Shown piece by piece: positions 49,115-64,000 of a stretch of DNA of 64,000 bases (its first letter is position 1; each line of letters starts with the position of its first letter). Below the pieces are notes generated by a model that saw only the letters and a program-made list of their open reading frames with translations, made no database searches and was not told the DNA's origin. Source of the DNA: Paracoccaceae bacterium (GTDB lineage Bacteria; Pseudomonadota; Alphaproteobacteria; Rhodobacterales; Rhodobacteraceae); NCBI GenBank assembly GCA_020446815.1, contig JAGRDY010000018.1:124001-188000 (forward strand), given 5' to 3'. The position numbers and the translations under genes are program-made.

Positions 49115-49807
49115 TCAGGTCTGGGCAGCGCGCGTCAGGGTAAGGCGCGCCGTTTCGAGGTGCCGCTTCATCAGTTCCGCGGCCCTTTCGGGCTCCCTTT
49201 CCCGGATGGCGGTCAACACCTGGCGGTGCTGGGTGTTATAGGTGCGGATGATCGATTCATTGAGCGTCAGGTTGCGCATCTGCTTCCATTCGTCGAGGCT
49301 GCGCGCCAGGGTGATCTGCTCCATCATCCAGGCCAGCATCCCGTTATGGGCGCTTTCGGTCAGGCAGATGTGAAATTCGGTATCGGCGGTGGAAAAGGCG
49401 TTGGGATCATCGACGCTCTGTTCCATGACGGCGCAGAGATCTTCGAGGCGGTCGAAGTCGCTCTGGCGCCCGTGAAGAACCGCGAGGCGGCAGCAATGCG
49501 GCTCGATCGCGAACCGCGCATCCATCAGTTCGAGCGGTCTGGTATTGGTCAGTACCGCATTCGCCGCCGTTGGCGTATTGCCGACCACATATGTACCGCT
49601 TCCGGCTCTGGTCTCGACCAGATTCTGACGCTCAAGCAAGTTCAGGGCGTGCCGGACCGTACCACGGGCAACGGAATATTGCACCGACAACTGGCGTTCA
49701 GGCGGCAGCCGATCGCCCGGAGCCAGGGTTCCCGAAGTGATTTGCCCACGAATCGATGCCGCGACTTGCGCGGAATTGGCCTTTCGCGGAGGGGTTTTTG
49801 CCGTCAT
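49115..49807 (-). CDS. GntR-family regulator (FadR/FCD type)
   Basis: 230 aa from ATG 49807 (CCGGAAA seven bases upstream). The N-terminal winged helix (VAASIRGQITSGTLAPGDRL, PPERQLSVQYSVARGTVRHAL, LVETRAGSGTYV) precedes an all-helical FCD effector domain (MDARFAIEPHCCRLAVLH, FHICLTESAHNGML, HRQVLTAIREREPERAAELM) with the His/Asp metal-site pattern. It is divergent from the FAD oxidoreductase. Two copies of a TTGGT-type motif lie between them and are its most likely operators. Confidence 0.9.
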   Translation of the reverse strand: MTAKTPPRKANSAQVAASIRGQITSGTLAPGDRLPPERQLSVQYSVARGTVRHALNLLERQNLVETRAGSGTYVVGNTPTAANAVLTNTRPLELMDARFAIEPHCCRLAVLHGRQSDFDRLEDLCAVMEQSVDDPNAFSTADTEFHICLTESAHNGMLAWMMEQITLARSLDEWKQMRNLTLNESIIRTYNTQHRQVLTAIREREPERAAELMKRHLETARLTLTRAAQT

Positions 49808-49820
49808 TGTATTTCCGGTC

Positions 49821-49840
49821 TGATCCAAATCTAAACCAAT
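49821..49840 (-). promoter_or_regulatory. TTGGT-N6-TTGG motif, copy 1 (regulator side)
   Basis: On the minus strand the sequence reads ATTGGTTTAGATTTGGATCA. It lies 13 bp upstream of the GntR start codon, where a bound repressor would block its own gene. It matches copy 2 at 16 of 20 positions in opposite orientation. Confidence 0.6.
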
Positions 49841-49952
49841 ATCATTATTCCCTAACATATTTTGCGCTGCTTCACCATTAATCTTGACAGAAAGTCAAAA
49901 ACATCGCCAGATCAGATCGCGAAACAGCACGAGTCGTTACAATCAGCTGTAA

Positions 49953-49972
49953 TTTGGTCTGGATTTGGTTCA
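49953..49972 (+). promoter_or_regulatory. TTGGT-N6-TTGG motif, copy 2 (oxidoreductase side)
   Basis: TTTGGTCTGGATTTGGTTCA lies 24 bp before the FAD oxidoreductase start codon. Two TTGGT half-sites are spaced 11 bp, one helical turn. Related copies occur at 49821 and in the second divergent region (62021, 62203). Confidence 0.6.
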
Positions 49973-49996
49973 ATAATCGCGCGCTAGGAGTTTTGG

Positions 49997-51340
49997 ATGG
50001 CTTTGCCCGTACATGCGGATTTTCTGATCATCGGGGCCGGGATACATGGCTTGTCGACGGCCTGGCGGCTTGCTGATAGGCTGATTGCGAAAGGTGAGAC
50101 CGTCGAGGGGCGAATCGTCGTTCTTGACAAGTCCGGAATCGCGTCGGGGGCGTCGGGCATTGCCTGCGGCGTGGTGCGCAACAACTATTTCCAGCCGGCG
50201 ATGCGCAAGCTGATGGCGCATTCGGTCGGCATCTGGGAAAGCGACCCCGAAGGGCTGAGCTATCACCCGGTCGGCTACATGCAGATTTCCAGCGAATCCA
50301 TGCACGAGGATGTGGCCACGATCCATGCCCAGCAGCAGGCGATCGGCTATGAGAGCAGCTTCATCGAGGGCGCGGCCGCCTGCGACGCCTACATGAAGAA
50401 CATGTTCAGCGACTGGCAGGCCAAGAACATCACTTCGGTGCTTCATGAAAAACGCGGCGGCTATTCGAACAACACCAAGGCGATGTACGGCCTTGCCCGC
50501 AAGGTCGAAGAGCGCGGCGTGCGCATCGTCACCGGTGTGACGGTCAAGGCGCTGCACAGCGAATCCGGATCGGGCAGCATCAAGTCGGCCGAGACGGACC
50601 GCGGCACCGTCACCTGCGACAGGCTCGTGATCGCGCCCGGCCCCTGGGCGCGCGATTTCTGGGACATGCTGGCATTGCCCAAGAAGATCACCGTCAAGGA
50701 CCGCGACGGATCGGTGCATGACGATATCGAGATGTGGCGTTACTGGCAGCTGGAGGAAGGCGTTCTGGGCATTCCGCCGGAGACGCTGACCACCAATGAC
50801 GGAAAGGTGCCGCCGGTCCTGCATGTGGATACCGACGCGCCGCTTCATTCCTGTGTCGACGGATCGCTGATCACCGACAAGATGTGGGGGATCTACTACA
50901 AGCCCGACTGGCATTTCGGCGGCATCCAGGGCGGCGCGTCGCCCTACAAGGTGGATACCCCGGTCGACGAAGTGGCGATCGACCCCTACGGGCCGTCTTC
51001 GCCCGAATTCGTGTCCTCGGACGAATTTGCGCATATGTGGGTATCGGCGCTTGCCCATTGCCATGCGCGGTTCGAGGGCATGATGGACAAATACCACAAG
51101 GAACCGTCTGGCGGGATCGGGTGTTTTACTGCCGACAGCTTCCCGGTCTTCGATCATTTCCATGAAAACACAGCCTTGATCGCGGATTCGAACCATGGCT
51201 GGAAAATGCTGGGTGTCGGCCATCTGATCGCCGACGAGGTGCTGGGCGAAAAGCAGGAGTTGCTGGAACCGTTCCGCTTTGCCCGCTTCGCGAAGGGTGA
51301 ATTGCACCCGGTATCACACAGCCCCTATCCGTGGAGCTGA
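49997..51340 (+). CDS. FAD-dependent oxidoreductase (DAO family, sarcosine oxidase beta-like)
   Basis: 447 aa. The N-terminal dinucleotide-binding motif FLIIGAGIHGLSTAWRLADR, then SGIASGASGIACGVVRNNYF, and a C-terminal GHLIADEV near FAD-binding ADSNHGWKMLGV place it in the D-amino-acid-oxidase fold group, like the beta subunit of sarcosine oxidase and a subunit of N-methylglutamate dehydrogenase. Those enzymes oxidise N-alkyl amino acids to the amino acid plus aldehyde. No alpha, gamma or delta subunits are nearby, so it would act alone. CTAGGAG precedes ATG 49997. First gene of the island operon. Confidence 0.87.
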   Translation: MALPVHADFLIIGAGIHGLSTAWRLADRLIAKGETVEGRIVVLDKSGIASGASGIACGVVRNNYFQPAMRKLMAHSVGIWESDPEGLSYHPVGYMQISSESMHEDVATIHAQQQAIGYESSFIEGAAACDAYMKNMFSDWQAKNITSVLHEKRGGYSNNTKAMYGLARKVEERGVRIVTGVTVKALHSESGSGSIKSAETDRGTVTCDRLVIAPGPWARDFWDMLALPKKITVKDRDGSVHDDIEMWRYWQLEEGVLGIPPETLTTNDGKVPPVLHVDTDAPLHSCVDGSLITDKMWGIYYKPDWHFGGIQGGASPYKVDTPVDEVAIDPYGPSSPEFVSSDEFAHMWVSALAHCHARFEGMMDKYHKEPSGGIGCFTADSFPVFDHFHENTALIADSNHGWKMLGVGHLIADEVLGEKQELLEPFRFARFAKGELHPVSHSPYPWS

Positions 51341-51389
51341 TGAACCAAGACAAGAAACGCCGGAAACAAGACTATCAGGGAGAGAGAAC

Positions 51390-52868
51390 GTGCCGGAAAT
51401 GGATATCGAAAGGTTTGTGGAAACCAAGGGCCGCGACGAAAAGATCAAGGAAGTACGCAAGAAGATAGACCAGTTGGGGATCGAGTATCTCTATCTTCAG
51501 TTCGTGTCGGTAACCGGCAAGATCATGGGCAAGGGCATCCCCGCCGATCACTGGGAAAGCGTCGCCAAGAAGGGTTTTCAGCTGGTCTATGGCTCGACGG
51601 TCAACCTTTTCACCAACCGCGCTGGCAACTATATCGGCTATGGCCCGGAGGCCGCCGAACTGGTCGGTATTCCTGAACCCGAAACCTTCATGCAACTGCC
51701 CTGGGCGCCGGAAATCGGGCGATTTTACTGCACCTTGTTCCGCAACCGCGAGGAAAAGGTCAATCCGGGCGGCTATCTGACCGCCGATTGCCGCGGAAAC
51801 CTGCGGCGGATGCATGACGAATTCACCAAGAAGCACGGCACCAAGCTGCGCATCGGCACCGAACCCGAGATGATGTGGCTGAAGTTCGACGAGAACGGCA
51901 AGCCCCGCGACGGCTTTTCCAGGCCCTACTGCTATCACATCGACCAGTTCGAAAGCCTGCGCCCGGTGTCGTTGCAGGTGATCCGCTATTCCCGCAAGAT
52001 GGGGCTCGACATGATCCAGGGCGATCACGAGGATGCGCCGGGGCAGCTCGAGCTCAACTGGATGTTCGACGATGTCCTGCGCAATGCCGACCGCCTGACG
52101 ACCTACCGGCAGATCTGTGCGCAGGTCGCCCGCGAACACGGGATTTTCGCCTGCTTCATGACCAAGCCGTTCATGGGTGTGTCGGCCTCGGGCTGCCATC
52201 ACAACATGAGCCTGTGGTCGGGCGGCGAGGATCACTTTGTCAAATGCGGCAACGACCCGGACAACCTGCCGGGCATGGCCGACAATTACATGTATGTACG
52301 GGGCGGCAAGAACACCTTCATGCCCGACACCGACGACCCGCAGATGCCGGGCAAGGAAGGGCTGAAGGCGATCGGCGGCGTGGTGCATCACCTTCAGGCG
52401 CTGACCGCCATCGGCTGTTCGACGGTCAACTCCTACCGCCGCCTTTGGGATACCGGTTTCTGGGCACCGGTCTTTGCCGACTGGGGCTTCCAGAACCGGA
52501 CGACGGGTCTGCGGGTATCGGCGCCGGGGCGGTTCGAATACCGTTCGGTCGATTCGATGGTGAACCCCTACCTGATGGGCACGACCCTGCTGGCCGCCAT
52601 GGACGACGGGCTGGACAACAGCCTTGATCCGGGCGAGCCGGAAGAGCGCAACATCTATGCCGCGATGGCCGAGGGCAAGCAGGTCAAGAAGCTTCCAATG
52701 TCGCTTGGCGAGGCACTTGATCACCTGTCCCGAAGCAAGGTTGTGCAGCGAGGGATGCCGGGCGAAATGTACCGGCTTTACGATGAATACAAGCGTGACG
52801 AATGGGCGCGCTTCATGTCGACGGTCACCGAATGGGACAAGGATACCTATATGGAATGCCTGCCCTGA
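51390..52868 (+). CDS. Glutamine synthetase-like ligase (GlnT/GmaS-type)
   Basis: 492 aa from GTG 51390 (GGGAGAGA eight bases upstream); ATG 51399 follows. Beta-grasp domain FVSVTGKIMGKGIP, metal and glutamate site GTEPEMMWLKFD and DHEDAPGQLELN, ammonia/ATP site CHHNMSLW, and NSYRRL...NRTTGLRVSAPGRFEYRSVDSMVNPYL are all retained, so it should be an active ATP-dependent gamma-glutamyl ligase. It is longer than type III GlnT or GmaS (about 440 aa). Between a flavoprotein and MgsABC-like genes, an amine is a more likely co-substrate than ammonia. It is followed by a strong terminator. Confidence 0.88.
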   Translation: MPEMDIERFVETKGRDEKIKEVRKKIDQLGIEYLYLQFVSVTGKIMGKGIPADHWESVAKKGFQLVYGSTVNLFTNRAGNYIGYGPEAAELVGIPEPETFMQLPWAPEIGRFYCTLFRNREEKVNPGGYLTADCRGNLRRMHDEFTKKHGTKLRIGTEPEMMWLKFDENGKPRDGFSRPYCYHIDQFESLRPVSLQVIRYSRKMGLDMIQGDHEDAPGQLELNWMFDDVLRNADRLTTYRQICAQVAREHGIFACFMTKPFMGVSASGCHHNMSLWSGGEDHFVKCGNDPDNLPGMADNYMYVRGGKNTFMPDTDDPQMPGKEGLKAIGGVVHHLQALTAIGCSTVNSYRRLWDTGFWAPVFADWGFQNRTTGLRVSAPGRFEYRSVDSMVNPYLMGTTLLAAMDDGLDNSLDPGEPEERNIYAAMAEGKQVKKLPMSLGEALDHLSRSKVVQRGMPGEMYRLYDEYKRDEWARFMSTVTEWDKDTYMECLP

Positions 52869-52881
52869 TTTATCCCCGACT

Positions 52882-52922
52882 GGCGGCAGGCCTTGCTCTC
52901 TCTGATCCTGCCGCCGTTTTTT
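52882..52922 (+). terminator. Intrinsic terminator between the ligase and glxB
   Basis: A 9-bp perfect stem (GGCGGCAGG 52882-52890, CCTGCCGCC 52907-52915) is followed by G and six T (52917-52922), 23 bases before the next start codon. It would separate or attenuate expression of the downstream glxBCD genes, although they clearly belong to the same functional group. Confidence 0.85.
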
Positions 52923-52944
52923 CAACCTAAGGAGGCGCATCGAA

Positions 52945-53883
52945 ATGTGCGGAATTGCAGGAATTATCCACAGGGGCAAAAGCTCCAACGTGGGCGGTGA
53001 GATGACCGCGATGCTGCAGGCGCTGAAACACCGCGGGCCGGATTCGACCGGCTATGCGGTTTATGCAACCAGCAAGAACCCCGAAGACTACATCATGCGG
53101 ATCAAGGTCGCCGAGGCCGAGGATCGTGCCGTGGGCCACGGCGTTCACAAACTGATCGCCGAGCGGATAGCGCGTGTCGATGCGATCCTGAAAGAACATG
53201 GCGCCAAGGTGAAATCCAAGGAGGCGGCGCGCGAATATGCGCTGCGCTACGTGTTGACCCATGACGGCGACACGGCGGCGATGGCCACCCATATCGAGGA
53301 GGACAAGGGCACGGAAATCCTCTCGATGGGCAACGGGCTCGAACTGATCAAGGATCTGGGCGATGCGAGCGATGTCGCGGGCGCTTATGGTCTGAACGAT
53401 TTTCAGGGCACCCACGGGATCGGCCATACCCGGATGGCCACCGAATCCGATGTCGACATCAAGTCGGCCCACCCCTACTGGGCCTTTCCCTATAATGACA
53501 TCAGCGTCGTTCACAACGGCCAGATCACCAATTACTGGCTGATGCGCCGCCAGATGGAAAAAAAGGGTCACCGGTTCCAGTCGAACTGCGACAGCGAACT
53601 GCTTGCGGTCTATACGGCGCACAATCTGTCCAACGGCGTTTCGCTGGAGGAATCGCTGCGCCGCTCGATTAGCGAGATCGACGGTGTGTTCACCTATCTG
53701 GTGGCGACCAAGGATCAGCTGGGCATGGCCAAGGATACAATGGCCGCCAAGCCGCTGGTGCTTTACGAAAGTGACGACCTGATCGCCATGGCTTCGGAAG
53801 AGGTCGCGATACGGGCGATCCTTCCCCAGGAAATCGACACTTATGACCCCTATGACGAGGAGGTGCGGGTATGGCAGGCGTGA
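52945..53883 (+). CDS. glxB: Class II glutamine amidotransferase GlxB (MgsA-like)
   Basis: 312 aa. The N-terminal nucleophile Cys2 (MCGIAGIIHRGK) and the GATase II core (LKHRGPDSTGYAVY, GIGHTRMATESDVDIKSAHP, SVVHNGQITNYWLMR, SNCDSELLAVY) are complete. An insertion of about 100 residues (60-160) separates the first elements, as in GlxB. It is homologous to the amidotransferase part of GltB and to N-methylglutamate synthase subunit A; there it releases ammonia or amine from a gamma-glutamyl amide. AAGGAGG precedes the start. The 3' end overlaps glxC. Confidence 0.92.
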   Translation: MCGIAGIIHRGKSSNVGGEMTAMLQALKHRGPDSTGYAVYATSKNPEDYIMRIKVAEAEDRAVGHGVHKLIAERIARVDAILKEHGAKVKSKEAAREYALRYVLTHDGDTAAMATHIEEDKGTEILSMGNGLELIKDLGDASDVAGAYGLNDFQGTHGIGHTRMATESDVDIKSAHPYWAFPYNDISVVHNGQITNYWLMRRQMEKKGHRFQSNCDSELLAVYTAHNLSNGVSLEESLRRSISEIDGVFTYLVATKDQLGMAKDTMAAKPLVLYESDDLIAMASEEVAIRAILPQEIDTYDPYDEEVRVWQA

Positions 53884-54740
53884 GCGATGCCGAACTGAAG
53901 AAGATGACGCAGGAAGAGCGCGTTACCGCGCTTGGAATGCGCACCGAGCAGTTGACGGGCAAGAGCCTCTATATCGAGTTCGACCCCGATGCGACCGAAC
54001 GGTTCACCTACCCCTGGGCGCCCGATGTCGACTTCAACAAGCGCATCGAAGTCGATACCGACAACATGACGTCAACCGAGGTGAACGCGAAGATCCGCGG
54101 CCTGATGAACGAAGGCTACGGAACCATCGTTCTGAAGAACCCGCGCGGCAAGCATTCCATCGGTGTCGGCATCCTCAGCCGTCTGAACCTGATCATCGAA
54201 GGTTCCACCGGTTATTTCGGGGTGGGGCTCATCGATGGGCCGAACGTGCGGATCACCGGGCGCGTCGGCTGGTCGTGCGGCGAAAACATGATGTCAGGGA
54301 CCATCGTCGTCGAAAAGAACGCCGGTTCGACGTTCGGCGCGGCGATCCGCGGGGGCGATCTGGTCTGCCGCGGCTCGGTCGGGTCGCGTACCGGCATCGA
54401 CATGAAGGGGGGCACGATCCTCGTCGGCGGAAATACCGGCGCTCTTTCGGGGTTCATGATGCAGCGCGGCAGGATGGTTGTCTGCGGCAATGCCGGCAAG
54501 AACCTTGGCGACTCGATGTATGACGGCACGATCTATATCGGCGGCACCATCCAGTCGCTCGGCGTCGATGCCGTAAAGGCCGAGCTGACCGACTTCGACA
54601 AGAAATGGCTGACCCGCAAGCTGACGCAACATGGACTGATGCCGGAAAAGGGTGTCGATCATTTCACCAAGATCGTCGCGGGCAAACAGCTCTGGAACTA
54701 CGACAATCTCGAACCCACCGAAAAGAAAATCATCCTCTGA
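53871..54740 (+). CDS. glxC: Glutamate synthase GXGXG-domain protein GlxC (MgsB-like)
   Basis: 289 aa, the stand-alone equivalent of the C-terminal beta-helix of GltB. Repeated G-x-x-G rungs are evident: GYGTIVLKNPRGKHSIGVGI, GSTGYFGVGLIDGPNVRITG, GGTILVGGNTGALSGF, NAGKNLGDSMYDGTIYIGG. In GltB this domain holds the ammonia channel together. It overlaps the end of glxB by 13 bp. It corresponds to the middle subunit of MgsABC. Confidence 0.92.
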   Translation: MAGVSDAELKKMTQEERVTALGMRTEQLTGKSLYIEFDPDATERFTYPWAPDVDFNKRIEVDTDNMTSTEVNAKIRGLMNEGYGTIVLKNPRGKHSIGVGILSRLNLIIEGSTGYFGVGLIDGPNVRITGRVGWSCGENMMSGTIVVEKNAGSTFGAAIRGGDLVCRGSVGSRTGIDMKGGTILVGGNTGALSGFMMQRGRMVVCGNAGKNLGDSMYDGTIYIGGTIQSLGVDAVKAELTDFDKKWLTRKLTQHGLMPEKGVDHFTKIVAGKQLWNYDNLEPTEKKIIL

Positions 54741-54761
54741 GTCACCGGAAAGGACCAAACC

Positions 54762-56126
54762 ATGGCTGACGGCGACATGCCCAAAAAACCAGCACTCGCG
54801 CGGGACACCAGCCGCATAGGCGACAGCTTCATCTTCCCGCCGCGGGTCATCGACGACATCCACATCAAGTCCGAGCTTGGACGCTACCGGATGCGCGGTT
54901 TCTCGCTTTTCAAGAAAATCCCGCATTGGGACGACCTGACCTTCCTGCCCGGCACCCTGACCCGGTTCGTGATCGAAGGCTATCGCGAAAAATGCGAGAC
55001 AAAGACGGTGATCGGCCCCAGGGCGAAGCGCCCGCTTGAGCTGGATATTCCGATCTACATCACCGGCATGTCGTTCGGGGCGCTGAGCTACGAGGCGAAA
55101 ACCGCGCTGGCGCGGGGCGCCACCATGGCCGGCACCGCGACCTGTTCGGGCGAGGGTGGCATGATTCCGGACGAACGGCGTTATTCCTCCAAGTGGTTTT
55201 ACCAGTGCATCCAGTCGCGCTATGGCTTCAACCCCAATCACCTCGTGCTTGCCGACGGTTGCGAATTCTTCATTGGCCAGGGGTGCAAGGTCGGCCTTGG
55301 CGGCCACCTGATGGGCCAGAAGGTCACCGACCAGGTGGCCGAGATGCGGTCGCTTCCGGCCGGGATCGACCAGCGGTCGCCCGCCCGCCACCCGGACTGG
55401 CTGGGGCCGGACGATCTGGCGCTGAAGATCCAGGAAATCCGCGAAGCCACGGACTGGCAGATACCGATCCAGCTCAAGCTCGGCGCGGCGCGCGTCTATG
55501 ACGATGTGCGCATGGCGGTGAAATGCGATCCCGATTCGATCTATATCGACGGGATGGAAGGGTCGACCGGCGCCGGCCCGCATCTGGCCACCGAAGAGAC
55601 CGGTGTGCCCGGCATGGCCGGCATCCGCCAGGCGCGCAAGGCCATCGACGATCTTGGCAAGCGCGGCGAGATCAGTCTCGTCTATGCCGGGGGTATCCGC
55701 AACGGCGCCGATGTGGCCAAGGCGATCGCGCTTGGCGCGGATGCCATCGCGATCGGGCATTCGGCGATGATGGCGCTGAACTGCAACAAGGATATTCCCG
55801 AGGCGAACTATCCCGAGGAAGTCGGGGCCGAGCCCGGGCATTGCTATCACTGCCATACCGGGCGCTGCCCGGTCGGGGTCGCGACCCAGGATCCGAGACT
55901 GCGCGCGCGCCTTGATCCCGACGAGGCCGCCGAGAGGGTCTATAATTTCCTGCATACCCTGACGATCGAGGCGCAGCTTTTCGCGCGGGCATGTGGCAAG
56001 ACCTATATCCATTCGCTGGAGCCCGAAGATCTTGCCGCCCTGACGATGGAGGCGTCGGCCCTGGCCGGTGTTCCGCTCGCCGGCACCAACCACACGGTTG
56101 GCGTCAAAGACTATCACCATCTGTAA
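54762..56126 (+). CDS. glxD: FMN-binding glutamate synthase-family protein GlxD (MgsC-like)
   Basis: 454 aa synthase subunit with an FMN TIM barrel (ITGMSFGALSYEAKTALARG, IPIQLKLGAARVYDDV, DGMEGSTGAGPHLATEETGV, VYAGGIRNGADVAKAIALGA) and an iron-sulfur motif C361-x2-C364-x4-C369 (CYHCHTGRCPVGVATQ). In MgsABC this subunit forms N-methylglutamate from the transferred amine and a 2-oxoglutarate/glutamate backbone. GGAAAGG precedes the ATG. It lies 21 bp after glxC. Confidence 0.93.
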   Translation: MADGDMPKKPALARDTSRIGDSFIFPPRVIDDIHIKSELGRYRMRGFSLFKKIPHWDDLTFLPGTLTRFVIEGYREKCETKTVIGPRAKRPLELDIPIYITGMSFGALSYEAKTALARGATMAGTATCSGEGGMIPDERRYSSKWFYQCIQSRYGFNPNHLVLADGCEFFIGQGCKVGLGGHLMGQKVTDQVAEMRSLPAGIDQRSPARHPDWLGPDDLALKIQEIREATDWQIPIQLKLGAARVYDDVRMAVKCDPDSIYIDGMEGSTGAGPHLATEETGVPGMAGIRQARKAIDDLGKRGEISLVYAGGIRNGADVAKAIALGADAIAIGHSAMMALNCNKDIPEANYPEEVGAEPGHCYHCHTGRCPVGVATQDPRLRARLDPDEAAERVYNFLHTLTIEAQLFARACGKTYIHSLEPEDLAALTMEASALAGVPLAGTNHTVGVKDYHHL

Positions 56127-56138
56127 GGAGGGATCGCA

Positions 56139-56552
56139 ATGGCTGGAACACAGTATCGCGGCTCCGAAATCAAGGACGTCGACCAGTTTCTCAAGGACTC
56201 CGCCGGGCTGGTCAGCAAGCGCGAAAAGGAGATCGGCCAGCATATCGGCTATCGCTACGATGTGAACCTGGTGCCCGATTACGACCGGATCACCCCGTTC
56301 TTGAAGAAATACATCGAGGTGATGGGCTGGGATGACCTGAACTGGCTCGAGGATGTCCACATGGGCTATGAGGAGGGCGCGCCGGCGGTCTTTGACCGGA
56401 ACAACAACGGCTGGGTCCGGGTTCCGTCGAGCATCGATTTGCCCGACAACCAGCAGGACCGGGACATGATCGCCCGTGAATTGCTGCTGAAGTTCCAGAT
56501 GTCGGATCGCCATCCGCTGGTAGCGCTGAGGAAAGCCTATATGAAATTCTGA
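56139..56552 (+). CDS. Unrecognised 137-residue protein following glxD
   Basis: No family recognised. The protein is soluble, acidic and aromatic, with no signal peptide and no cysteines. Landmarks are GSEIKDVDQFLKDSAGLVSK, YDVNLVPDYDRITPFLKKYI, GWDDLNWLEDVHMGYEEGAP and a C-terminal PLVALRKAYMKF. It starts 12 bp after glxD behind AAGGAGG, ends six bases before the amidase gene, and is therefore translated with the pathway. It may be an extra subunit of the synthase or a small enzyme; nothing in the sequence decides this. Confidence 0.75.
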   Translation: MAGTQYRGSEIKDVDQFLKDSAGLVSKREKEIGQHIGYRYDVNLVPDYDRITPFLKKYIEVMGWDDLNWLEDVHMGYEEGAPAVFDRNNNGWVRVPSSIDLPDNQQDRDMIARELLLKFQMSDRHPLVALRKAYMKF

Positions 56553-56558
56553 GAGCCC

Positions 56559-57386
56559 GTGCGCCCGTTAACCATCTCGTGCCTCCAGACAAGGCCGCAA
56601 CCCGATTTCGATCTGGCCTTGGCTGAGGCGATGCCGCTTGCCCGGCAAGCTGTTGACGCGGGCGCACAAATCCTTTTTCTTCCGGAATATTGCGGCGGGC
56701 TGCGGACCGTCGGGGCGGCGTTCGCGCCGCCCTTCGAGCGCGAAGAAGACCACCCCTTCATCCGGGCTTTTCAAGACCTTGCCGCCGAACGATCGGTCTG
56801 GATCGTTCTTGGATCCGTCGCCGTCAGCGGACCGGGCAGCAAATACCGCAACCGCGGCATCCTGATCGACGCCCAAGGCAGGATCGGCGGTCGCTATGAC
56901 AAGCTGCATCTGTTCGATGTGACGCTCGCCGGCGGCGAGCAATATTGCGAAAGCCGTTCGGTCGAACCCGGCGACACGGCGGTAACATACAAGACGCCTT
57001 TTGGGGTGATCGGCCACACGATCTGCTATGATCTGCGCTTTCCCCTGCTGTATCATGACCTCGCCAAGGCGGGCGCCGACATCATCTGCTGCCCGGCCGC
57101 CTTCACGCGCCGGACCGGCGAGGCGCATTGGCATATTCTCAACCGGGCTCGCGCCATCGAGAACGGCTGTTTCATCGTCTCGCCCTGTGCGACCGGGCCT
57201 GTTCCGGGGGGCGGCGAGACATTCGGGCATTCTCTGATCGTGGACCCCTGGGGCAGGGTTCTCGCGGACGGCGGAACAAAGCCGGGCATTGCGACGGCGC
57301 TGATCGATCTCGATCAGGTGCAGGCAACCCGCGCAGCAATCCCCAACCTGACCAATGAAAGGAGTTATGGTATTGCGGCCCGGTAG
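56559..57386 (+). CDS. Carbon-nitrogen hydrolase (nitrilase superfamily, Nit1/Nit2-like)
   Basis: 275 aa from a GTG start. The Glu-Lys-Cys triad is visible: E43 (LPEYCGG), K115 (RYDKLHLFD) and C156 (TICYDLRFP). The sequence is closest in pattern to omega-amidase/deaminated-glutathione amidase branches, which hydrolyse short amides. In this operon it could cleave a gamma-glutamyl or omega-amide by-product such as 2-oxoglutaramate. No partner subunits needed. Confidence 0.9.
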   Translation: MRPLTISCLQTRPQPDFDLALAEAMPLARQAVDAGAQILFLPEYCGGLRTVGAAFAPPFEREEDHPFIRAFQDLAAERSVWIVLGSVAVSGPGSKYRNRGILIDAQGRIGGRYDKLHLFDVTLAGGEQYCESRSVEPGDTAVTYKTPFGVIGHTICYDLRFPLLYHDLAKAGADIICCPAAFTRRTGEAHWHILNRARAIENGCFIVSPCATGPVPGGGETFGHSLIVDPWGRVLADGGTKPGIATALIDLDQVQATRAAIPNLTNERSYGIAAR

Positions 57387-57440
57387 ATATCGGGGATGAT
57401 CATACGAATAATAATCTAGATAAAAATGGAGGAGGAGACG

Positions 57441-59060
57441 ATGCCTACAGATCGACTGGGTGCGACCCAGGCTAGTTTTGCAGAGAATTCCCTACACCGA
57501 ACGATCGGATGGCAACAGGGGTTCTGGTTGGCAAGCGGCGTTCCGGCGCTTGTGCTGTTTTCCATCGGAGGCATTGCCGCGACAATCGGCAACCCGTCCT
57601 GGGTGATCTGGATACTTTCCGTCAGCTTCGGCTTTCTGCAATCCTTCGTATATGCCGAGATTGCCGGCCTGTTCCCGTCAAAAAGCGGTGGCGCATCGGT
57701 CTATGGTGCGGCGGCATGGGTGCGCTACAGCCGATTGCTCGCGCCCTTGTCGGTATGGTGCAACTGGCTGGCCTGGACTCCGGTGCTCGCCATCGGCGGC
57801 GGACTTGCGGCGGGCTACATCCTCAGTGTGTTTTTCGATGCCGATGCGGCGATCCGGACCTGGCAGATCACCCTGGTCAATCTCGATTCGCTGAAAGAGG
57901 GGCTGACGCTGCGCATCGACGCGACATTCATTCTGGGCGCGTTGATCCTGCTGGTGGTTTTCGCGATCCAGCATGGCGGGGTATTGCGCGCCGCGAAATT
58001 CCAGATGATCGTCGGTCTGGCCGTCGTGATCCCGCTTCTGATCGTGGGGATCGTGCCGTTGATCAGCGGTGACGTGCTGGCCTCGAACCTGTTGCCGCTG
58101 AAGCCTCTGGCCTTCGATGCGGACGGCAAGGTGATCGAGGGCGTTTGGAACATTCCCGGCTGGACGCTGTTTCTGGGCGGTCTCTTCATCGCCGCCTGGT
58201 CGGCCTATGCCTTCGAAACCGCGATCTGCTACACGTCGGAGTTCCAGAACCCCGCCAAGGACACCAGCCGGGCGATCCTGTCGGCCGGTCTTCTGTGCAT
58301 CCTGGTCTACACGCTGGTGCCGCTGACGTTTCAGGGCGTTCTCGGGGTCGAGGGCATGTTGCAGGATGGTATCGTCGACGGTTCGGCGGTGGCAGGTGCG
58401 ATGGCCGGCATGGTCGGCGGCAAGTCGTTTGTCTTCGCGCTCATGGTCATCATGCTGATCCTGGCGCTGCTGCTGGCGGTCATGACGTCGATGGCCGGTT
58501 CGTCGCGCACCCTCTATCAGGGTTCTGTCGACGGCTGGTTGCCGCGTTATCTGAGCCATGCCAACAGCCACGGCGCGCCGACCCGCGCGATGTGGACCGA
58601 TCTCACCTTCAACCTCATCCTGTTGATGATGTCGGACTATCTCTTCGTGCTGGCGGTGTCGAACTGCTGCTATCTGATCTTCAACTTCCTCAATCTGAAC
58701 GCAGGCTGGATTCACCGCGTCGACAGCCCCGACACGCCGCGCCCATGGCGCTGCCCGAATCCGCTGCTTGCGATCGGTGTCGTGCTGTCATTCGTGAACG
58801 CGCTGCTTCTGGGCGCGGGTGCCAATGTCTGGGGCGAGGGGACGCTGATGTCCGGTATCATCGCGGCGGCACTGATCATTCCGGTGTTCGCGTTCCGGCA
58901 CTTTGTCCAGGACAAGGGGAAATTCCCGCAGCAGATGCTGGATGACCTGCATGTGAACTCGCGTGATCTCTCGGTTCGCAAGGCAGGCATGTTGCCTTAC
59001 CTTGTGCTGGTTGCGGGCGTCGTCGTCGCGATTGCCGCCAACCAGATATTCCACCTGTGA
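57441..59060 (+). CDS. APC-superfamily amino acid/amine permease
   Basis: 539 aa with about 12-13 membrane helices. The first begins LHRTIGWQQGFWLASGVPAL, and helix 2 holds FVYAEIAGLFPSKSGGASVYGAA, the APC consensus region. FETAICYTSEFQNPAKDTSRA and MAGSSRTLYQGSVDGWLPRYL are conserved loops. It imports an amine or amino acid, probably the pathway substrate. ATG 57441 has GGAGGAGGAG upstream; it lies 54 bp after the amidase gene. Confidence 0.88.
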   Translation: MPTDRLGATQASFAENSLHRTIGWQQGFWLASGVPALVLFSIGGIAATIGNPSWVIWILSVSFGFLQSFVYAEIAGLFPSKSGGASVYGAAAWVRYSRLLAPLSVWCNWLAWTPVLAIGGGLAAGYILSVFFDADAAIRTWQITLVNLDSLKEGLTLRIDATFILGALILLVVFAIQHGGVLRAAKFQMIVGLAVVIPLLIVGIVPLISGDVLASNLLPLKPLAFDADGKVIEGVWNIPGWTLFLGGLFIAAWSAYAFETAICYTSEFQNPAKDTSRAILSAGLLCILVYTLVPLTFQGVLGVEGMLQDGIVDGSAVAGAMAGMVGGKSFVFALMVIMLILALLLAVMTSMAGSSRTLYQGSVDGWLPRYLSHANSHGAPTRAMWTDLTFNLILLMMSDYLFVLAVSNCCYLIFNFLNLNAGWIHRVDSPDTPRPWRCPNPLLAIGVVLSFVNALLLGAGANVWGEGTLMSGIIAAALIIPVFAFRHFVQDKGKFPQQMLDDLHVNSRDLSVRKAGMLPYLVLVAGVVVAIAANQIFHL

Positions 59061-59119
59061 CGAAATCCGCCGCCGCGCCCGATAACCGCGCGGCGGCGGC
59101 TCTTGACGAAAGGCCAGTC

Positions 59120-59701
59120 ATGTCATTGCTCGATCAGCAATTCGGGCTTCCGCCCGAACCCAATGCCAGGCGGCTGGCGTTCCTGAAATGGCAATGCCAT
59201 ACGCGCCAGATCGCGATGCGTGAAAATATGGGCCGCCCGGATGATGCCATCACGCCGGCCGTCACGCTGACGGGCGAAAGCGAACCGCTGGGCCATATCA
59301 TAACGCTGATCTGCAAATTGCCGGCCTATTCGGTCACGGCCGAACTCAATCATATTCTGGCCAAGACCCATGACCCGGCCCAGAGGCGCGAACAGGCGCT
59401 CCGGTTCCTTTCGGCGGCCCATTACCAGAAGGCGGCGGAATTTTCCGATGTTCTGGTTGCGACGTTTCCGCCGCGCTCGCCCGGTGCCGCCAAACTGCGC
59501 GAGGCAGAGGTGGTGCGGCTCGATTTCGAGGCCTATGCGCAGAAATACGCATTGCATTGCCGGGTATGGACCATTGCCCCGCACAATTTCCTGTATCAGA
59601 CCACCATGGCCCACAACCGGCTTTTCAACCCGGCGCTGCCGCCCGACACTGTTGTTCTGGGTTTTGAACCGGACTGGAAACTTTCGACATCGACCCCCTG
59701 A
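59120..59701 (+). CDS. Unrecognised 193-residue cytoplasmic protein
   Basis: No family recognised. ATG 59120 has AAAGG eight bases upstream; an in-frame GTG at 59057, overlapping the permease stop, is the alternative. It has no signal and no membrane helix. Features are WQCHTRQIAMRENMGRPDDA near the N-terminus, a helical middle (AELNHILAKTHDPAQRREQA, LRFLSAAHYQKAAEF), and a C-terminal half with several aromatic and histidine residues (YALHCRVWTIAPHNFLYQTT). It is translated after the permease. Role unknown. Confidence 0.72.
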   Translation: MSLLDQQFGLPPEPNARRLAFLKWQCHTRQIAMRENMGRPDDAITPAVTLTGESEPLGHIITLICKLPAYSVTAELNHILAKTHDPAQRREQALRFLSAAHYQKAAEFSDVLVATFPPRSPGAAKLREAEVVRLDFEAYAQKYALHCRVWTIAPHNFLYQTTMAHNRLFNPALPPDTVVLGFEPDWKLSTSTP

Positions 59702-59800
59702 CCGAAAGGGGTGGGTCCCGGTCCGGGGAAGTCTTCTGTTGACATTGCCGCAAAGCGGCAGGTGTAATTCGATCAGAACGGAATAAACGCCGAGAACGAG

Positions 59801-61111
59801 TTGAGCTCTTACAGATTCGGAGCGGAATTGGCCGTGACGGCACGCCTGCCCAAGATTGATTTCTTGGCCAGGGAAAAGGTGCGCATCGGCGTCCTGGCGC
59901 CCCTGTCGGGCGATTCCGCCGCATGGGGGCGGCCCGGCTACGAAGGCTGCCGGATCTGGGCTGACTGGCTGAACGCGAAGGGTGGTCTGCGGATCGGCAA
60001 TCAAAGGCGGCTGGTCGACATCGTGGCGTTCGACGACGAGTACGACCCTGTCCGGGCGGTGGTGGGCGCCAAACACCTGGTGCTTGAACAGAACGTCAAG
60101 ATCATCCTCATGCTGGGGGGGGATACTGTCCCTGCGATCACCGATATCCTTTCGCGCAACAAGATGCTTGCGACAACGCTGCTGCCCAGCGATCTGTCAC
60201 CGGACACGCCCTATCTGATCGCCCCCTGCGAGGTCCATCCGATCTATGTGGTCACCGGCGTGGCCTGGCTGGCGGAAAATTTCCCGAATTTGAAAACCGC
60301 CGCGATCTGCGCGCAAAAGGATGCGCTTGGCCTGCCCTCGGTGGCCTCCTACAAGGCCGCCTTCGAAGCCGCCGGAATTGAGATCGTCAAGGAGATACTC
60401 TTTCCCGCCCAGGAACAGGACATGGACAGCGTCGTCGAGGGAATGCTGAGCGAATGCCCCGACATCCTGTGTTGGGATACCGCGTATGAGCCCTATGTCC
60501 ACGCGCTTACCGAGGCGGCTTTCAAACGGGGGTTTCGCGGGCAAATCCTGTCCTGCACATGTGACAATTACCAAAGCCTGATCGCCAAGACGAGCAGCGA
60601 CTTCATGGAAGGGTTCACCTTTCAGTTTCCCGATTTCGATGATCCTGCGCTCAACGACGCGCAGATCAGTTTCAGGCGGCCGGCGGAATTCTTCGCTGAA
60701 TTCAACAGACGCTTTCCCGGTGAATGGAGCGCCGTGTCATGGGAATACTGCGCCATTCTCGAGATGTGGCGAAACGCGGTGGAAACCATCCAGACGGTCG
60801 AGCCGCTGCCGGTCCTGTCGGCGATCAAGATGGGCGGCTACAGCCGCAACGTGTTCGGCGCGGCCCGCTGGTGGGGCCGCGAACTGTTCGGTATCGACCA
60901 TGCGCTTGTGGGATCATGGCCGGTGGTCCGAATAAGGGAGGGCAGGGCGCGGATCGTGGAGTTTCGCTCGGTCCTCGACTGGTGGGACCGGCATGGCGAC
61001 ATTCTGAAAAACCACATGCGCGCCTATGGCCAGATGTGGGATCAGCGCCTGGACCAGCAGACGGTCATCGCCCGTTCCAGCGCCGGTCACAAACCTTTGG
61101 TCAGGTCCTGA
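59801..61111 (+). CDS. Signal-less Liv/AmiC-type ligand-binding protein (candidate intracellular sensor)
   Basis: 436 aa, closely similar over its whole length to the exported binding protein at 62293. Shared stretches include IGVLAPLSG, DEYDP, SDLSPDT, AAFEAAGIE, FMEGF-FQFPDFDDPA and AVSWEY; more than half of aligned residues look identical by eye. It lacks any hydrophobic leader: the N-terminus is MSSYRFGAELAVTARLPKID, so it should stay in the cytoplasm. The precedent is AmiC of Pseudomonas, a Liv-type fold that senses amides inside the cell. Start is TTG 59801; GTG 59834 (CGGAG upstream) is equally possible. It is convergent with the second GntR gene. Confidence 0.78.
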   Translation: MSSYRFGAELAVTARLPKIDFLAREKVRIGVLAPLSGDSAAWGRPGYEGCRIWADWLNAKGGLRIGNQRRLVDIVAFDDEYDPVRAVVGAKHLVLEQNVKIILMLGGDTVPAITDILSRNKMLATTLLPSDLSPDTPYLIAPCEVHPIYVVTGVAWLAENFPNLKTAAICAQKDALGLPSVASYKAAFEAAGIEIVKEILFPAQEQDMDSVVEGMLSECPDILCWDTAYEPYVHALTEAAFKRGFRGQILSCTCDNYQSLIAKTSSDFMEGFTFQFPDFDDPALNDAQISFRRPAEFFAEFNRRFPGEWSAVSWEYCAILEMWRNAVETIQTVEPLPVLSAIKMGGYSRNVFGAARWWGRELFGIDHALVGSWPVVRIREGRARIVEFRSVLDWWDRHGDILKNHMRAYGQMWDQRLDQQTVIARSSAGHKPLVRS

Positions 61112-61860
61112 TGAAACTCCGCCAGCGACAGTTTCAGGTTCTCGACCGTCGCCTCGATTTCCCGGTTGTTGATCGCGTCACAAAGGGCCTTGCTCTGCAA
61201 CTGGTATTCCTTGATCCGGCGCGGTGTGAGTGACTTGCGCCGCCGCGCCGCCCAATCGGCAGTCTGATTCACATGATTGATCATCTGATAGATGACAATC
61301 AGCATCGGGTTATGGGTGCCACGCGCGATCTGCATGCGCAGCTTGTCATCCAGGTCGCAATACTGTTCTCCGTCGATGGTTACCCGCTCGATCTGTTCCT
61401 GGATCCTGTTCATCTGCTGGATGTCGCGCGATGACATCGACAGGACGGCAAGCCGGGCAATTTCGGGTTCGACGATCGAGCGCACGACCCCGAGCTCCAG
61501 CGGGCTCATCAGTTCGCCGATCTCGCTCAGATCGAGCGAAGGCGCATTTTTTTCAATCACCGGCTCGGTCGGGACCGACACCGCCGTGTGCCGGTAGCAT
61601 ACCACCGAACCGCTTCCGGCGTGGCGCTTGATGACGTTATACTGATCCAGCAGATCGAGCGCCTGCCGGATCGTGTTGCGTGACATGGAATATTCCAGGC
61701 ACAGCGCACGTTCCGCCGGCAGCCGCGTCCCGAATCTGTAGACGCCTTCGCAGATCGCCGAAAAAAGGGAATCCGCCAGTTTGCGGGTCTTGGGGGTTAC
61801 CGGTTTGCGGATCTGTTCGTCGAGATCCCAGGGTGGTTGAACAGTCAAGTCCATCAACAT
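61087..61860 (-). CDS. GntR-family regulator (FadR/FCD type), second copy
   Basis: 257 aa. The winged helix (LADSLFSAICEGVYRFGTRL, PAERALCLEYSMSRNTIRQA, VIKRHAGSGSVVCY) precedes an FCD domain (SPLELGVVRSIVEPEIARLA, MQIARGTHNPMLIVIY, ALCDAINNREIEATVENLKL). It overlaps the convergent sensor gene by 25 bp and is divergent from the ABC transporter genes. It resembles the first regulator (49115) only at family level. It is the likely controller of the uptake system. Confidence 0.9.
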   Translation of the reverse strand: MLMDLTVQPPWDLDEQIRKPVTPKTRKLADSLFSAICEGVYRFGTRLPAERALCLEYSMSRNTIRQALDLLDQYNVIKRHAGSGSVVCYRHTAVSVPTEPVIEKNAPSLDLSEIGELMSPLELGVVRSIVEPEIARLAVLSMSSRDIQQMNRIQEQIERVTIDGEQYCDLDDKLRMQIARGTHNPMLIVIYQMINHVNQTADWAARRRKSLTPRRIKEYQLQSKALCDAINNREIEATVENLKLSLAEFHQDLTKGL

Positions 61861-62020
61861 TTTGCCTGTTTTATATCCGCACAGCTTCGCGCGATCTGTT
61901 TTTGACGCACGGGGGCCACCTGTCGTGTGGCAAGAGCGATTTGAAACCGCTCCGGTTCGAGGATGCGTTCGTGCAGAACCTGCCCAGCATCGTCAAGCCA
62001 AATCCGCTTGTCCGGAGTGC

Positions 62021-62040
62021 TGGGCCAAATCTGGACCAAC
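62021..62040 (-). promoter_or_regulatory. TTGGT-N6-TTGG motif, copy 3
   Basis: On the minus strand it reads GTTGGTCCAGATTTGGCCCA. It matches copy 1 (49821) at 15 of 20 positions. It lies 160 bp upstream of the GntR-2 start, pointing toward that gene. Confidence 0.5.
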
Positions 62041-62089
62041 CCACCCGTTCATCACAAATTATGCGCATTTTTAAACAGTAACAACCCAA

Positions 62090-62110
62090 AAAATACCAAA
62101 AAATACCTAA
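62090..62110. repeat. Two AAAATACC words, inverse of the downstream GGTATTTT
   Basis: AAAATACCAA (62090-62099) is followed directly by AAAATACCTAA (62100-62110). Their reverse complement TTGGTATTTT appears at 62142-62151 and 62204-62213, so the words form inverted pairs across the AT-rich segment. Confidence 0.65.
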
Positions 62111-62141
62111 ATAGCATTTTTATTTAACATTTCTTGCCATT

Positions 62142-62152
62142 TTGGTATTTTC
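62142..62152 (+). repeat. TTGGTATTTTC direct repeat, first copy
   Basis: TTGGTATTTTC here recurs exactly at 62204-62214, 62 bp downstream, within the AT-rich control region. The second copy is part of the longer TTGGT-N6-TTGG motif. Confidence 0.65.
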
Positions 62153-62202
62153 CGGCAATCATCGAGGCGTTGCTGGTGCAAGAATCATCACGTTTCAGCC
62201 GG

Positions 62203-62222
62203 ATTGGTATTTTCTTGGTTCA
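62203..62222 (+). promoter_or_regulatory. TTGGT-N6-TTGG motif, copy 4 (transporter side)
   Basis: ATTGGTATTTTCTTGGTTCA matches copy 2 (49953) at 14 of 20 positions, with both TTGGT half-sites and the TTCA tail identical. It ends 70 bp before the binding-protein start codon. Confidence 0.55.
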
Positions 62223-62292
62223 GAAAGTTCCGATCCGGTCAAAAACTGGAATTGCCTAAAAACCTAAAAAGAAGCGACATAGGGAGGAAAAA

Positions 62293-63600
62293 ATGAACCT
62301 GAAAAGTATGATTACCGGTCTGAGCCGCAGAGGCTTTCTGGGTTCGGTGGCGTCGTTTGCGGGGGTCAGTACGCTTGGCGCATCGCTGCCTGGCAGGGCG
62401 CTCGCCGCCGATGACAACGTGATCAAGATCGGCTTTCTGGCGCCTCTGACCGGGGCGGTTGCCGCCTGGGGCAAGCCTGGTCTCGATGGCTGTCAGATTT
62501 GGGCCGAATGGGTCAACAAGGCCGGCGGGATCAACATCGACGGAACCGCCCATACGGTCGAGTTTGTCAGCTATGACAATGAATACGATCCGGCCAAGGC
62601 GCGTACCGGTGCGACCAAGCTGATCCGCGAGGATGGCGTGAAGTTCATCATGATGCTCGGCGGCGACACCTGGCCGGGGGTCATGCCGGTGGCGGAGCAG
62701 ACGGGGATGTTGTTTTCCACGCTGTTGCCGTCGGATCTCTCGCCCGACACGACCACCCTTATCGCGCCCGCCGAAGTGCACCCGGTCTACAATGTCACGG
62801 GCGTCGAATGGCTGGCCGAAAACAAGCCGGAATTGAAAACCGCCGTGATGTGTGCGCAGGACGATGCGCTCGGGCTGCCATCGGTCGCGACCTATCTGGC
62901 CGCCTTCGAAGCCGCCGGGATCGAGATGCTGGACGAACCGCTGTTGTTCGACCCGGCGACGACGGACTTTGCGCCTGTGGTCACCCGCCTGATGTCCGGC
63001 AACCCGGATATCATCTGCCTTGACACCTGCTATTCGGATTATGTGCACCCGATCTGCGAACAGCTGTTCCAGCAAGGGTACAAGGGTCAGATCATTTCCT
63101 GCACGGCGGACTTCTACGACCAGATGATCGAAAAGACCTCGAAGGAGTTCATGGAAGGATTCATCTTCCAGTTCCCGGATTTCGACGATCCGGCAATGGA
63201 AGCCGAGGGCATCAACTTCAAGCACGCCAACGCCTTCTATGCGGAATACGCCAAGCGTTTTCCGGGCCAGTGGGGCGCGGTGAGTTGGGAATATGCGGCT
63301 GTCATGGATCTGTGGAAGGCGGCCGCCGAAACGGCGGGTTCCACCGAACCCGACGCGGTGCTTACGGCCATGCTCGACGATGGCAAGGGCATGCACGCCT
63401 TTGGCGAGGCCGATTGGTGGGGCAAGGATCTCTTTGGTATCGACCATGCCCTGGTCGGCAACTGGCCCGTCGTGGTCATCGAAGATGGCAAGGCGCATGT
63501 GAAGGCCCTGAAGTCGATCCCCGCCTGGTACGACAAGCATGGCGAATTGCTCAAGAAGTACATGTCGGACTACGGCCAGATGTGGAATCAGCGGACCTGA
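62293..63600 (+). CDS. Liv/HAAT-type ABC transporter substrate-binding protein, Tat-exported
   Basis: 435 aa periplasmic binding protein (type 1 fold). A twin-arginine signal (SRRGFLGSVASFAG) ends near ALAADD, indicating folded export. The mature protein begins VIKIGFLAPLTGAVAAWGKP and belongs to the branched-chain amino acid/amide/urea (LivK, AmiC, UrtA-like) group. AGGGAGG precedes ATG 62293. First gene of a Liv-type importer; a cytoplasmic paralogue is encoded at 59801. The ligand is likely the amine or amide handled by the island. Confidence 0.92.
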   Translation: MNLKSMITGLSRRGFLGSVASFAGVSTLGASLPGRALAADDNVIKIGFLAPLTGAVAAWGKPGLDGCQIWAEWVNKAGGINIDGTAHTVEFVSYDNEYDPAKARTGATKLIREDGVKFIMMLGGDTWPGVMPVAEQTGMLFSTLLPSDLSPDTTTLIAPAEVHPVYNVTGVEWLAENKPELKTAVMCAQDDALGLPSVATYLAAFEAAGIEMLDEPLLFDPATTDFAPVVTRLMSGNPDIICLDTCYSDYVHPICEQLFQQGYKGQIISCTADFYDQMIEKTSKEFMEGFIFQFPDFDDPAMEAEGINFKHANAFYAEYAKRFPGQWGAVSWEYAAVMDLWKAAAETAGSTEPDAVLTAMLDDGKGMHAFGEADWWGKDLFGIDHALVGNWPVVVIEDGKAHVKALKSIPAWYDKHGELLKKYMSDYGQMWNQRT

Positions 63601-63672
63601 CAGGCCTGCTTCCGAAGCGTCGCGGCGGCTGGTTCGCCGTGGCGTTCCCCCACAGTATAAATCGAGACATCC

Positions 63673-64000
63673 ATGTTTGACCTGCTTGCGCAAACGGTCC
63701 TTAACGCTTGCTATTCGGCCAGCTACATTTCTCTTGTCGCCGTCGGGCTGGTGCTGATCTTCGGCGTCATGGGCATCGTGAACTTTGCGCATGGCGAGCT
63801 GTTCATGGTCGGCGCCTATGTCGTGGTCGCCCTTTATTCGAACTACGACATCCCTTATGTGCTTGTCGCCGCGATCGGCCTTGTCTTTGTGGGCTGCATC
63901 GGCCTTCTGATGGAACGAACGATGTTCCGGCCGCTTCGCGACAACCCGCTTGGCGGGCTCGTGGCGTCGATCGGTTTCCTGATGATCCTTCAGGCGCTGG
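63673..64000 (+). CDS. Liv-type ABC transporter permease LivH, 5' part
   Basis: 109 codons are visible before the window ends. The start MFDLLAQTVLNACYSASYIS, then LVAVGLVLIFGVMGIVNFAH, GELFMVGAY and ERTMFRPLRDNPLGGLVASI are the hallmarks of LivH permeases. ATG 63673 lies 72 bp after the binding-protein stop. LivM and the ATPases LivG/LivF are expected beyond the edge. Confidence 0.93.
   Translation, partial: MFDLLAQTVLNACYSASYISLVAVGLVLIFGVMGIVNFAHGELFMVGAYVVVALYSNYDIPYVLVAAIGLVFVGCIGLLMERTMFRPLRDNPLGGLVASIGFLMILQAL

Follow-up and report, generated by a model that had tools for sequence, protein, structure and literature searches.

Comparative genomics of a GlxBCD-associated ligase unit of Alphaproteobacteria: a probable dimethylamine utilisation system in place of Dmm

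This work concerns a group of linked genes from a Paracoccaceae bacterium (assembly GCA_020446815.1, contig JAGRDY010000018.1), located within the analysed stretch of 64,000 nucleotides (positions 124,001 to 188,000 of the contig; hereafter the window). The core of this group, which we call the unit, consists of a glutamine-synthetase-like ligase (GS490), a three-part GlxBCD-type synthase (GlxB', GlxC' and GlxD') and two conserved proteins, U137 and U214, while a DAO-type flavin enzyme and a nitrilase-family enzyme are optional. A first-pass annotation of the window had recognised an amine route related to the N-methylglutamate pathway and named no substrate for it; the evidence described below points to dimethylamine (DMA), a secondary amine. 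We propose, with a probability of roughly 0.7, that the unit is a DMA utilisation system which would act through N,N-dimethylglutamate and serve as a non-orthologous replacement of the DMA monooxygenase DmmDABC (Dmm). The identification as a DMA system that replaces Dmm is well supported by comparative genomics, and the putative mechanism via N,N-dimethylglutamate is the simplest interpretation. The gene set, its linkage, the co-occurrence with Tdm, the exclusion of Dmm and the active-site residues of the ligase are read directly in the sequences; DMA as the substrate is suggested by the genomic comparisons, and the intermediates as well as the roles of U137, U214 and the nitrilase are predicted.

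Results

The main evidence comes from a family sample of 295 genomes representing 294 genera, in which we looked for U137, Tdm (the demethylase of trimethylamine N-oxide), PF11927, canonical MgsC and DAO. U137 was found in 24 of these genomes and Tdm, with a cut-off of 1100 bits, in 68. Tdm is present in 23 of the 24 U137-positive genomes and in 45 of the 271 U137-negative ones (Fisher p 1.6e-15, the genomes being taken as independent, which they are not), and the sole U137-positive genome without Tdm over the cut-off (G160) is 83% complete. Twelve further genomes, in which the best Tdm-like match scores 987-1066 bits, were counted as Tdm-negative; none of them is in the U137 or the Dmm-grade list.

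The anticorrelation with Dmm was fixed as a test before the search was made. PF11927 (DUF3445) has matches in 228 of the 295 genomes, only 41 of which are Dmm-grade, defined as at least 215 bits, with the next match below at 199. A Dmm-grade match occurs in none of the 24 U137-positive genomes and in 39 of the 45 genomes that are Tdm-positive and U137-negative. Thus, the 68 Tdm genomes comprise none with both systems, 23 with the unit only, 39 with Dmm only and 6 with neither (p 5.9e-13, under the same incorrect assumption of independence). The two sampled members of the host genus divide in the same manner, G000 (the host) carrying the unit and G024 dmmDABC. The gene annotated as DUF3445 in Ruegeria conchae adjoins a DmmA gene in the trimethylamine (TMA) cluster, and in three Dmm-grade genomes that were inspected all four dmm genes are present. 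Weaker PF11927 matches exist in 16 of the 24 U137-positive genomes; in the eight of these that were inspected, the best DmmC match reaches at most 30% over at most 65% or is absent, and there is no DmmA or DmmB within about 5 kb. Homologues of DmmA, DmmB or DmmC were found in none of 100 unit loci. Two genomes (G100 and G170) are Dmm-grade without Tdm over the cut-off. Among the six Tdm-positive genomes with neither system, G174 has a truncated unit, and in G233 and G253 a Tmm-Tdm cluster contains GS490 (87% and 89%) but no GlxB'C'D'. Many members of the family carry a PF11927 relative that is distinct from Dmm; of nine non-Dmm-grade copies inspected, six have a glutamine synthetase (GS) homologue in the 9-11 kb fetched.

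The genes listed by the first-pass annotation proved to be open reading frames of the forward strand with short or no gaps between them, and their Pfam and NCBIfam families agree with those it had named. GS490 (about 51399..52868) has an uncertain start, either at 51399 or at a GTG at 51390, and 51396 was taken in the analyses. It is followed by GlxB' (52945..53883), a class-II amidotransferase subunit (Pfam GATase_6/7; 32% to MgsA) that retains the N-terminal Cys in the motif MCGIAG, by GlxC' (53871..54740), a GXGXG subunit (37% to MgsB) that is longer than MgsB, and by GlxD' (54762..56126), an FMN-dependent glutamate-synthase-like protein (Pfam Glu_synthase) that is 53% identical to canonical MgsC, falls into a separate score class and is the proposed maker of N,N-dimethylglutamate. 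U137 (56139..56552) is a protein of 137 residues, 80-93% identical among 34 aligned relatives, which serves as the marker of the unit. The nitrilase-family, omega-amidase-like protein (56559..57386; Pfam CN_hydrolase), which matches nitrilase homologue 2 in the PDB, is presumably accessory. U214, with 214 residues, lies at 59057..59701, and the DAO-type FAD enzyme (Pfam DAO), a candidate N,N-dimethylglutamate demethylase, precedes the ligase at 49997..51340.

The co-occurrence of these genes as a set, which the first-pass annotation had put forward for checking, is borne out. Scanning named genomes with U137 yielded at least 596 confirmed relatives, and the best 80 were retained; 63 of these loci extend at least 6.5 kb upstream and 57 at least 9.5 kb downstream. 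As the best 80 are those nearest to the window, the counts lean to close kin. One further set of genomes partly repeats those of the family sample (with the same coordinates), and its counts were not pooled with those of the sample. The closest named relatives of U137, among the matches listed, are mostly from Roseovarius and other Rhodobacteraceae. The order GS490-GlxB'-GlxC'-GlxD'-U137 is kept in all 63 near relatives and is therefore not due to chance; U214 is present in 57 of 57. The 63 loci with enough upstream DNA contain gntR in 61 cases, gat1 in 33, DAO in 30 and mgdA in 22, and the 57 with enough downstream DNA contain the nitrilase in 49 cases, Tdm in 40, the TMAO (trimethylamine N-oxide) importer genes TmoX, TmoW and TmoV in 31 each and Tmm in 25.

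The unit also reaches beyond the family: U137 was found in 37 of 385 genomes of the class, spanning 21 families, and the 20 class loci that were fetched, several of which are ended by contig ends, contain GS490 in 19 cases, DAO in 15 and Tdm in 5. It occurs together with GmaS and an ammonium-transporter-like frame in three genomes of 1.2-1.4 Mb (G513, G337 and G641) whose fetched stretches have a GC content of 32-35%, and in G513 it adjoins Tdm with one small frame between. The small size and low GC content suggest that these are SAR11-type genomes. Named loci from SAR116 (L073) and from Rhodobacteraceae SB2 (L031), which we take to be CHAB-I-5, carry the unit as well.

The host assembly (G000) is made up of 37 contigs that total 3.47 Mb. 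From the end of the window, the Liv importer leads into the flanking DNA of contig C36 (L088:5661-12111), to a full-length homologue of trimethylamine dehydrogenase (1006.8 bits to 1djn), which keeps what we take to be the residues Cys30, Tyr60, Trp264 and Trp355 of that enzyme and is followed on its 3' side by a 1071-residue protein with Fe-S and electron-transfer-flavoprotein-beta-like regions, an electron-transfer-flavoprotein-alpha-like protein and a GcvT-like protein. The host also encodes TmoXWV and Tdm. DMA is a product of Tdm as well as of trimethylamine dehydrogenase. On the other hand, no match to PF11927, no canonical MgsC and no canonical GmaS was found in the host genome, in which the best GS is 35% identical to GmaS. 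Because the enzymes that make DMA are present without any of these three, the unit is the only candidate we have seen for the host's DMA, and a route giving N-methylglutamate directly would not need GmaS or MgsABC. Liv and trimethylamine dehydrogenase homologues were also seen in the stretch around the unit in L219.

It had been suggested in the first-pass annotation that MgdABCD is missing and that the single DAO protein stands in its place. The absence is real for the window, but the genome contains three SoxB/Mgd-type clusters, located at C36:33-38 kb, on C17 and on C32, which are 80%, 69% and 47% identical to MgdA. These clusters, together with the presence of mgdA near the unit in 22 of 63 relatives and the absence of DAO from 33 of 63, speak against a replacement of MgdABCD by DAO. 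DAO itself is far from MgdA (22.5% over 200 residues); among solved structures it comes closest to sarcosine oxidases, L-amino acid deaminases and dimethylglycine dehydrogenases (best E 1.4e-17). In the family sample this type of DAO is present in 11 of the 24 unit genomes; a copy was also seen in L254 (G211:C6), a genome that has neither U137 nor Tdm over the cut-off.

GS490 is 28% identical to GmaS and scores 301.8 bits against TIGR03105, whose cut-off is 469.6. In the residue numbering of the GmaS structure paper (PMC7948447, consulted in part), with the register set by alignment, GS490 keeps the GmaS catalytic set (Asp177, Glu186 and Arg312) and the methylamine-site set (Tyr147, Gln175, Glu179, Asn188 and Lys30), as well as Arg288 and a Trp at the position of Trp300. 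The positions of Asp50' and of the Glu flap in ammonia-dependent GS are occupied by Val and Trp. GS490 differs from GmaS by an Ile at Tyr174, a gate loop five residues shorter, an insertion of about 25 residues and a longer N terminus. All 67 GS490 relatives contain the motifs KGFQLVYG, IQGDHEDAPGQLELN and GFWAP. In a tree of 42 sequences GS490 forms its own clade (100/97), which lies outside the GmaS+GlnT clade (92/93, slightly below the firm-support mark of the tool), and together with plasmid-borne ligases from Ruegeria, Paracoccus and actinobacteria, its nearest group, it makes up a joint clade (100/100). The residues, the score and the tree lead us to reject an ammonia-specific GlnT identity, against which the first-pass annotation had asked for the ligase to be checked.

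The plasmid-borne ligases (of Ruegeria SCSIO 43209, Paracoccus TOH, Rhodococcus opacus and Gordonia KTR9) differ from GS490 in that no GlxBCD is annotated around them. Their surroundings (L240-L243) contain a cytochrome P450 in two of four cases (L240 and L243), type-1 amidotransferases in L240 and L241, and genes for aldehyde dehydrogenase and gamma-glutamyl hydrolase; perhaps these relatives are ligases for other secondary amines. In a molinate degrader, GS genes and P450s are candidates in, or induced during, the degradation of a cyclic secondary amine, although its authors link that GS to ammonium assimilation (PMC9477822, as far as the accessible part of the paper goes). DMA, too, is a secondary amine, and the parallel is a lead. 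The unit itself is not plasmid-borne, according to a search of PLSDB in which U137 had no match and the best match of GS490 was 50.5%.

Neither U137 nor U214 has a match in Pfam or NCBIfam at E 0.001. For U137 there is no convincing match in the PDB (best E 0.026), and its predicted model is poor (pLDDT 61.8); it is perhaps a fourth subunit of the synthase. The model of U214 is better (pLDDT 87), and its best Foldseek match (E 1.9e-3, TMq 0.42; none at E 0.001) hints weakly at a fold like the FMN-binding split barrel, so that U214 is perhaps a flavin helper. In SAR11-sized genomes U214 lies directly 3' of GmaS and not of the unit (L211:11526-12116, L213:8762-9316), and it may serve both the methylamine and the DMA routes. 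The motif CYHCHTGRC is found in GlxD' of the window and in 5 of 7 relatives inspected, and in none of 6 canonical MgsC aligned. An Fe-S centre may thus be retained in GlxD', and, as canonical MgsC lacks this CxxCxxxxC motif, the two synthases may differ in their electron supply.

Discussion

In the proposed pathway, GS490 would join DMA to glutamate at the expense of ATP, yielding gamma-glutamyl-dimethylamide. DMA would then be freed inside the GlxB'C'D' complex, perhaps with the participation of U137 and U214, and coupled reductively by the same complex to 2-oxoglutarate, producing N,N-dimethylglutamate. DAO would take one methyl group off this compound to leave N-methylglutamate. The second would be removed by MgdABCD, whose genes lie at other places in the host genome but close to the unit in many relatives, giving glutamate and one-carbon units for folate. 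Free methylamine would be bypassed, making GmaS and MgsABC dispensable. The role of DAO as the component that makes them so fits the occurrence of canonical MgsC in 4 of 11 DAO-positive and 10 of 13 DAO-negative unit genomes (raw counts of small numbers, which include the fragmented or incomplete assemblies G116, G160 and G209).

The scheme shares its logic with the N-methylglutamate pathway of GmaS, MgsABC and MgdABCD, namely a glutamyl-amide ligase, a three-part GlxBCD-type synthase and flavin-dependent demethylation, and the ligase and synthase of the two are homologous. As the first-pass annotation had argued, the unit is nonetheless separate, which is evident from the residues, the tree and the conserved gene set: the identities are 28% for the ligase and 32%, 37% and 53% for MgsA, MgsB and MgsC, respectively, the gene order is different, and U137, U214, the nitrilase and DAO are added. 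It cannot be the canonical gmaS-mgsABC, since relatives can carry both. In G014, a single contig contains mgd genes, an AraC-type regulator, gat1, gntR, DAO, the unit, an importer for trimethylamine N-oxide (TMAO) and Tdm (1200 bits), and after Tdm a separate GmaS (634 bits to TIGR03105) with MgsC, MgsB and MgsA. Ruegeria arenilitoris has the unit and after it Tmm (809 bits, cut-off 675), the importer and Tdm, with gmaS-mgsABC and mgd genes on a different contig. DmmDABC, by contrast, has the same proposed place in the pathway, handling DMA after Tdm (Lidbury 2017, PMC5520151, in the part consulted), but has no homologous gene in the unit, and its product is methylamine, unlike the predicted N-methylglutamate of the unit. 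Trimethylamine and dimethylamine dehydrogenases oxidise the amine directly, whereas the unit would conjugate it to glutamate first; a trimethylamine dehydrogenase homologue lies close to the unit in the host and G393.

The homology to GmaS and MgsABC makes it necessary to consider a second route for methylamine, in which GS490 and GlxB'C'D' would make gamma-glutamylmethylamide and N-methylglutamate with an affinity or regulation different from those of the canonical enzymes. The absence of canonical MgsC from 10 of the 24 unit genomes, including the host, and a GmaS-type ligase found before GlxB'C'D'-U137 in G535 agree with such a route. However, the other 14 unit genomes carry canonical MgsC as well, redundancy with MgsABC does not predict the exclusion of Dmm, and DMA made by Tdm would be left with no known outlet, as no Dmm-grade match was found; we regard this explanation as unlikely. 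Somewhat less likely still is a variant in which the unit acts on DMA and has free methylamine as its end product, which is then passed on to GmaS and MgsABC. The excess of canonical MgsC among the units without DAO is what such a variant would produce, but the 10 genomes without canonical MgsC include near-complete assemblies of few contigs (G000, G073, G104 and G115), and no gene of the unit obviously cleaves a C-N bond to release free methylamine.

An even smaller chance should be given to the idea that the unit serves a different secondary amine or N-methyl compound, derived e.g. from homarine or betaines, and that its clustering with TMA and TMAO genes is incidental. This reading draws on the P450 and amidotransferase neighbours of some of the nearest non-unit relatives of GS490 and on the reported activity of Mgd in homarine catabolism (PMC13390433, in the part available), yet it predicts neither the presence of Tdm in 23 of 24 unit genomes nor the lack of Dmm from all 24, and an operon for homarine in particular is disfavoured by both observations. 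The family names, as well as the ammonium-transporter-like frame near the unit in L211-L213 (read from its first residues), might bring to mind an ammonia-assimilating GlnT/GlxBCD bypass. This is extremely improbable, as GS490 falls short of the TIGR03105 cut-off, lacks Asp50' and the Glu flap residue, keeps the amine site of GmaS and stands outside the GmaS/GlnT clade.

Several points weigh against the proposed DMA pathway. It is predicted from genomic comparison, and the p-values presuppose an independence of genomes that does not hold. Three Tdm-positive genomes (G046, G097 and G285) have neither the unit nor Dmm, and Tdm was not found in 17 of the 57 near-relative loci or in 15 of the 20 class stretches, several of them ended by contig ends; in the host it lies, with TmoXWV, on a contig other than that of the unit. 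The mechanism would require two hypothetical activities, the hydrolysis of a tertiary amide by a class-II amidotransferase and the reduction of an iminium by the synthase, and with DAO missing from 33 of 63 near relatives its step must be carried out there by something else. Finally, the ligase and the synthase are not strictly tied to each other: in G535 (L229:4659-10000) a GmaS-type ligase (59%) precedes GlxB'C'D'-U137 and no GS490 was seen, and in two genomes (L250:3411-4898, L251:4479-5948) a lone GS490 without GlxB'C'D' or U137 lies in Tmm-Tdm clusters that also hold canonical MgsABC.

No dmm genes were reported in the SAR11 representatives screened or in CHAB-I-5 (Lidbury et al., PMC5520151), and glxBCD/glnT of SAR11 have been proposed to act on methylamine (Sun et al. 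2011, PMC3160333), according to the parts of these papers that were consulted. In HTCC1062 the latter genes, at SAR11_1313-1316, may correspond either to the unit or to MgsABC. We consider it rather probable that an undescribed N,N-dimethylglutamate pathway is distributed widely across alphaproteobacterial families, with Roseobacter relatives, SAR116 and SAR11-like bacteria among them, that it explains how DMA formed from TMAO is cleared in lineages without dmmDABC, and that the proposed marine DMA bottleneck is smaller than supposed. If this is true, the reported gap in the breakdown of the methylated amines of the ocean could be filled, the picture drawn by Lidbury et al. would change, and the chemistry of GS-like ligases and GlxBCD synthases would be extended from primary to secondary amines. 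U137 and GS490 can serve as marker genes for metagenome and expression surveys. In the open-access literature, judged by listings, we found nothing on dimethylglutamate or glutamyl-dimethylamide in amine catabolism, nor anything that brings together dimethylamine, SAR11, glutamine synthetase and tdm; an earlier publication elsewhere is possible.

Other genes of the window

Upstream of DAO lie gat1 (48351..49037, forward strand), an accessory class-I glutamine amidotransferase-like gene (Pfam GATase), and gntR1 (49115..49858, reverse strand), a divergent GntR/FCD regulator according to Pfam. An annotated type 1 glutamine amidotransferase is also found 3' of gmaS in Ruegeria conchae. Between the nitrilase and U214 is the APC permease (57426..59060, forward strand) of the first-pass annotation, which had not noticed that it passes the NCBIfam cut-off for the TMAO permease family (NF053774, 865 bits, cut-off 690). 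It is present in none of the 57 near relatives and, at 55%, in L217.

Beyond U214 follow SBP1 (59801..61111, forward strand), a homologue of Liv-type binding proteins, and gntR2 (61087..61860, reverse strand), a second GntR/FCD regulator identified by a domain match. The Liv importer begins with the substrate-binding protein SBP2 (62293..63600) and the permease LivH (63673..64000), both on the forward strand; LivH runs past the window end, and the importer extends toward the trimethylamine dehydrogenase homologue. SBP1 is 53% identical to SBP2, and their alignment begins at residue 2 of SBP1 and residue 18 of SBP2, the leader of SBP2 apparently missing from SBP1, which may be a cytoplasmic sensor.

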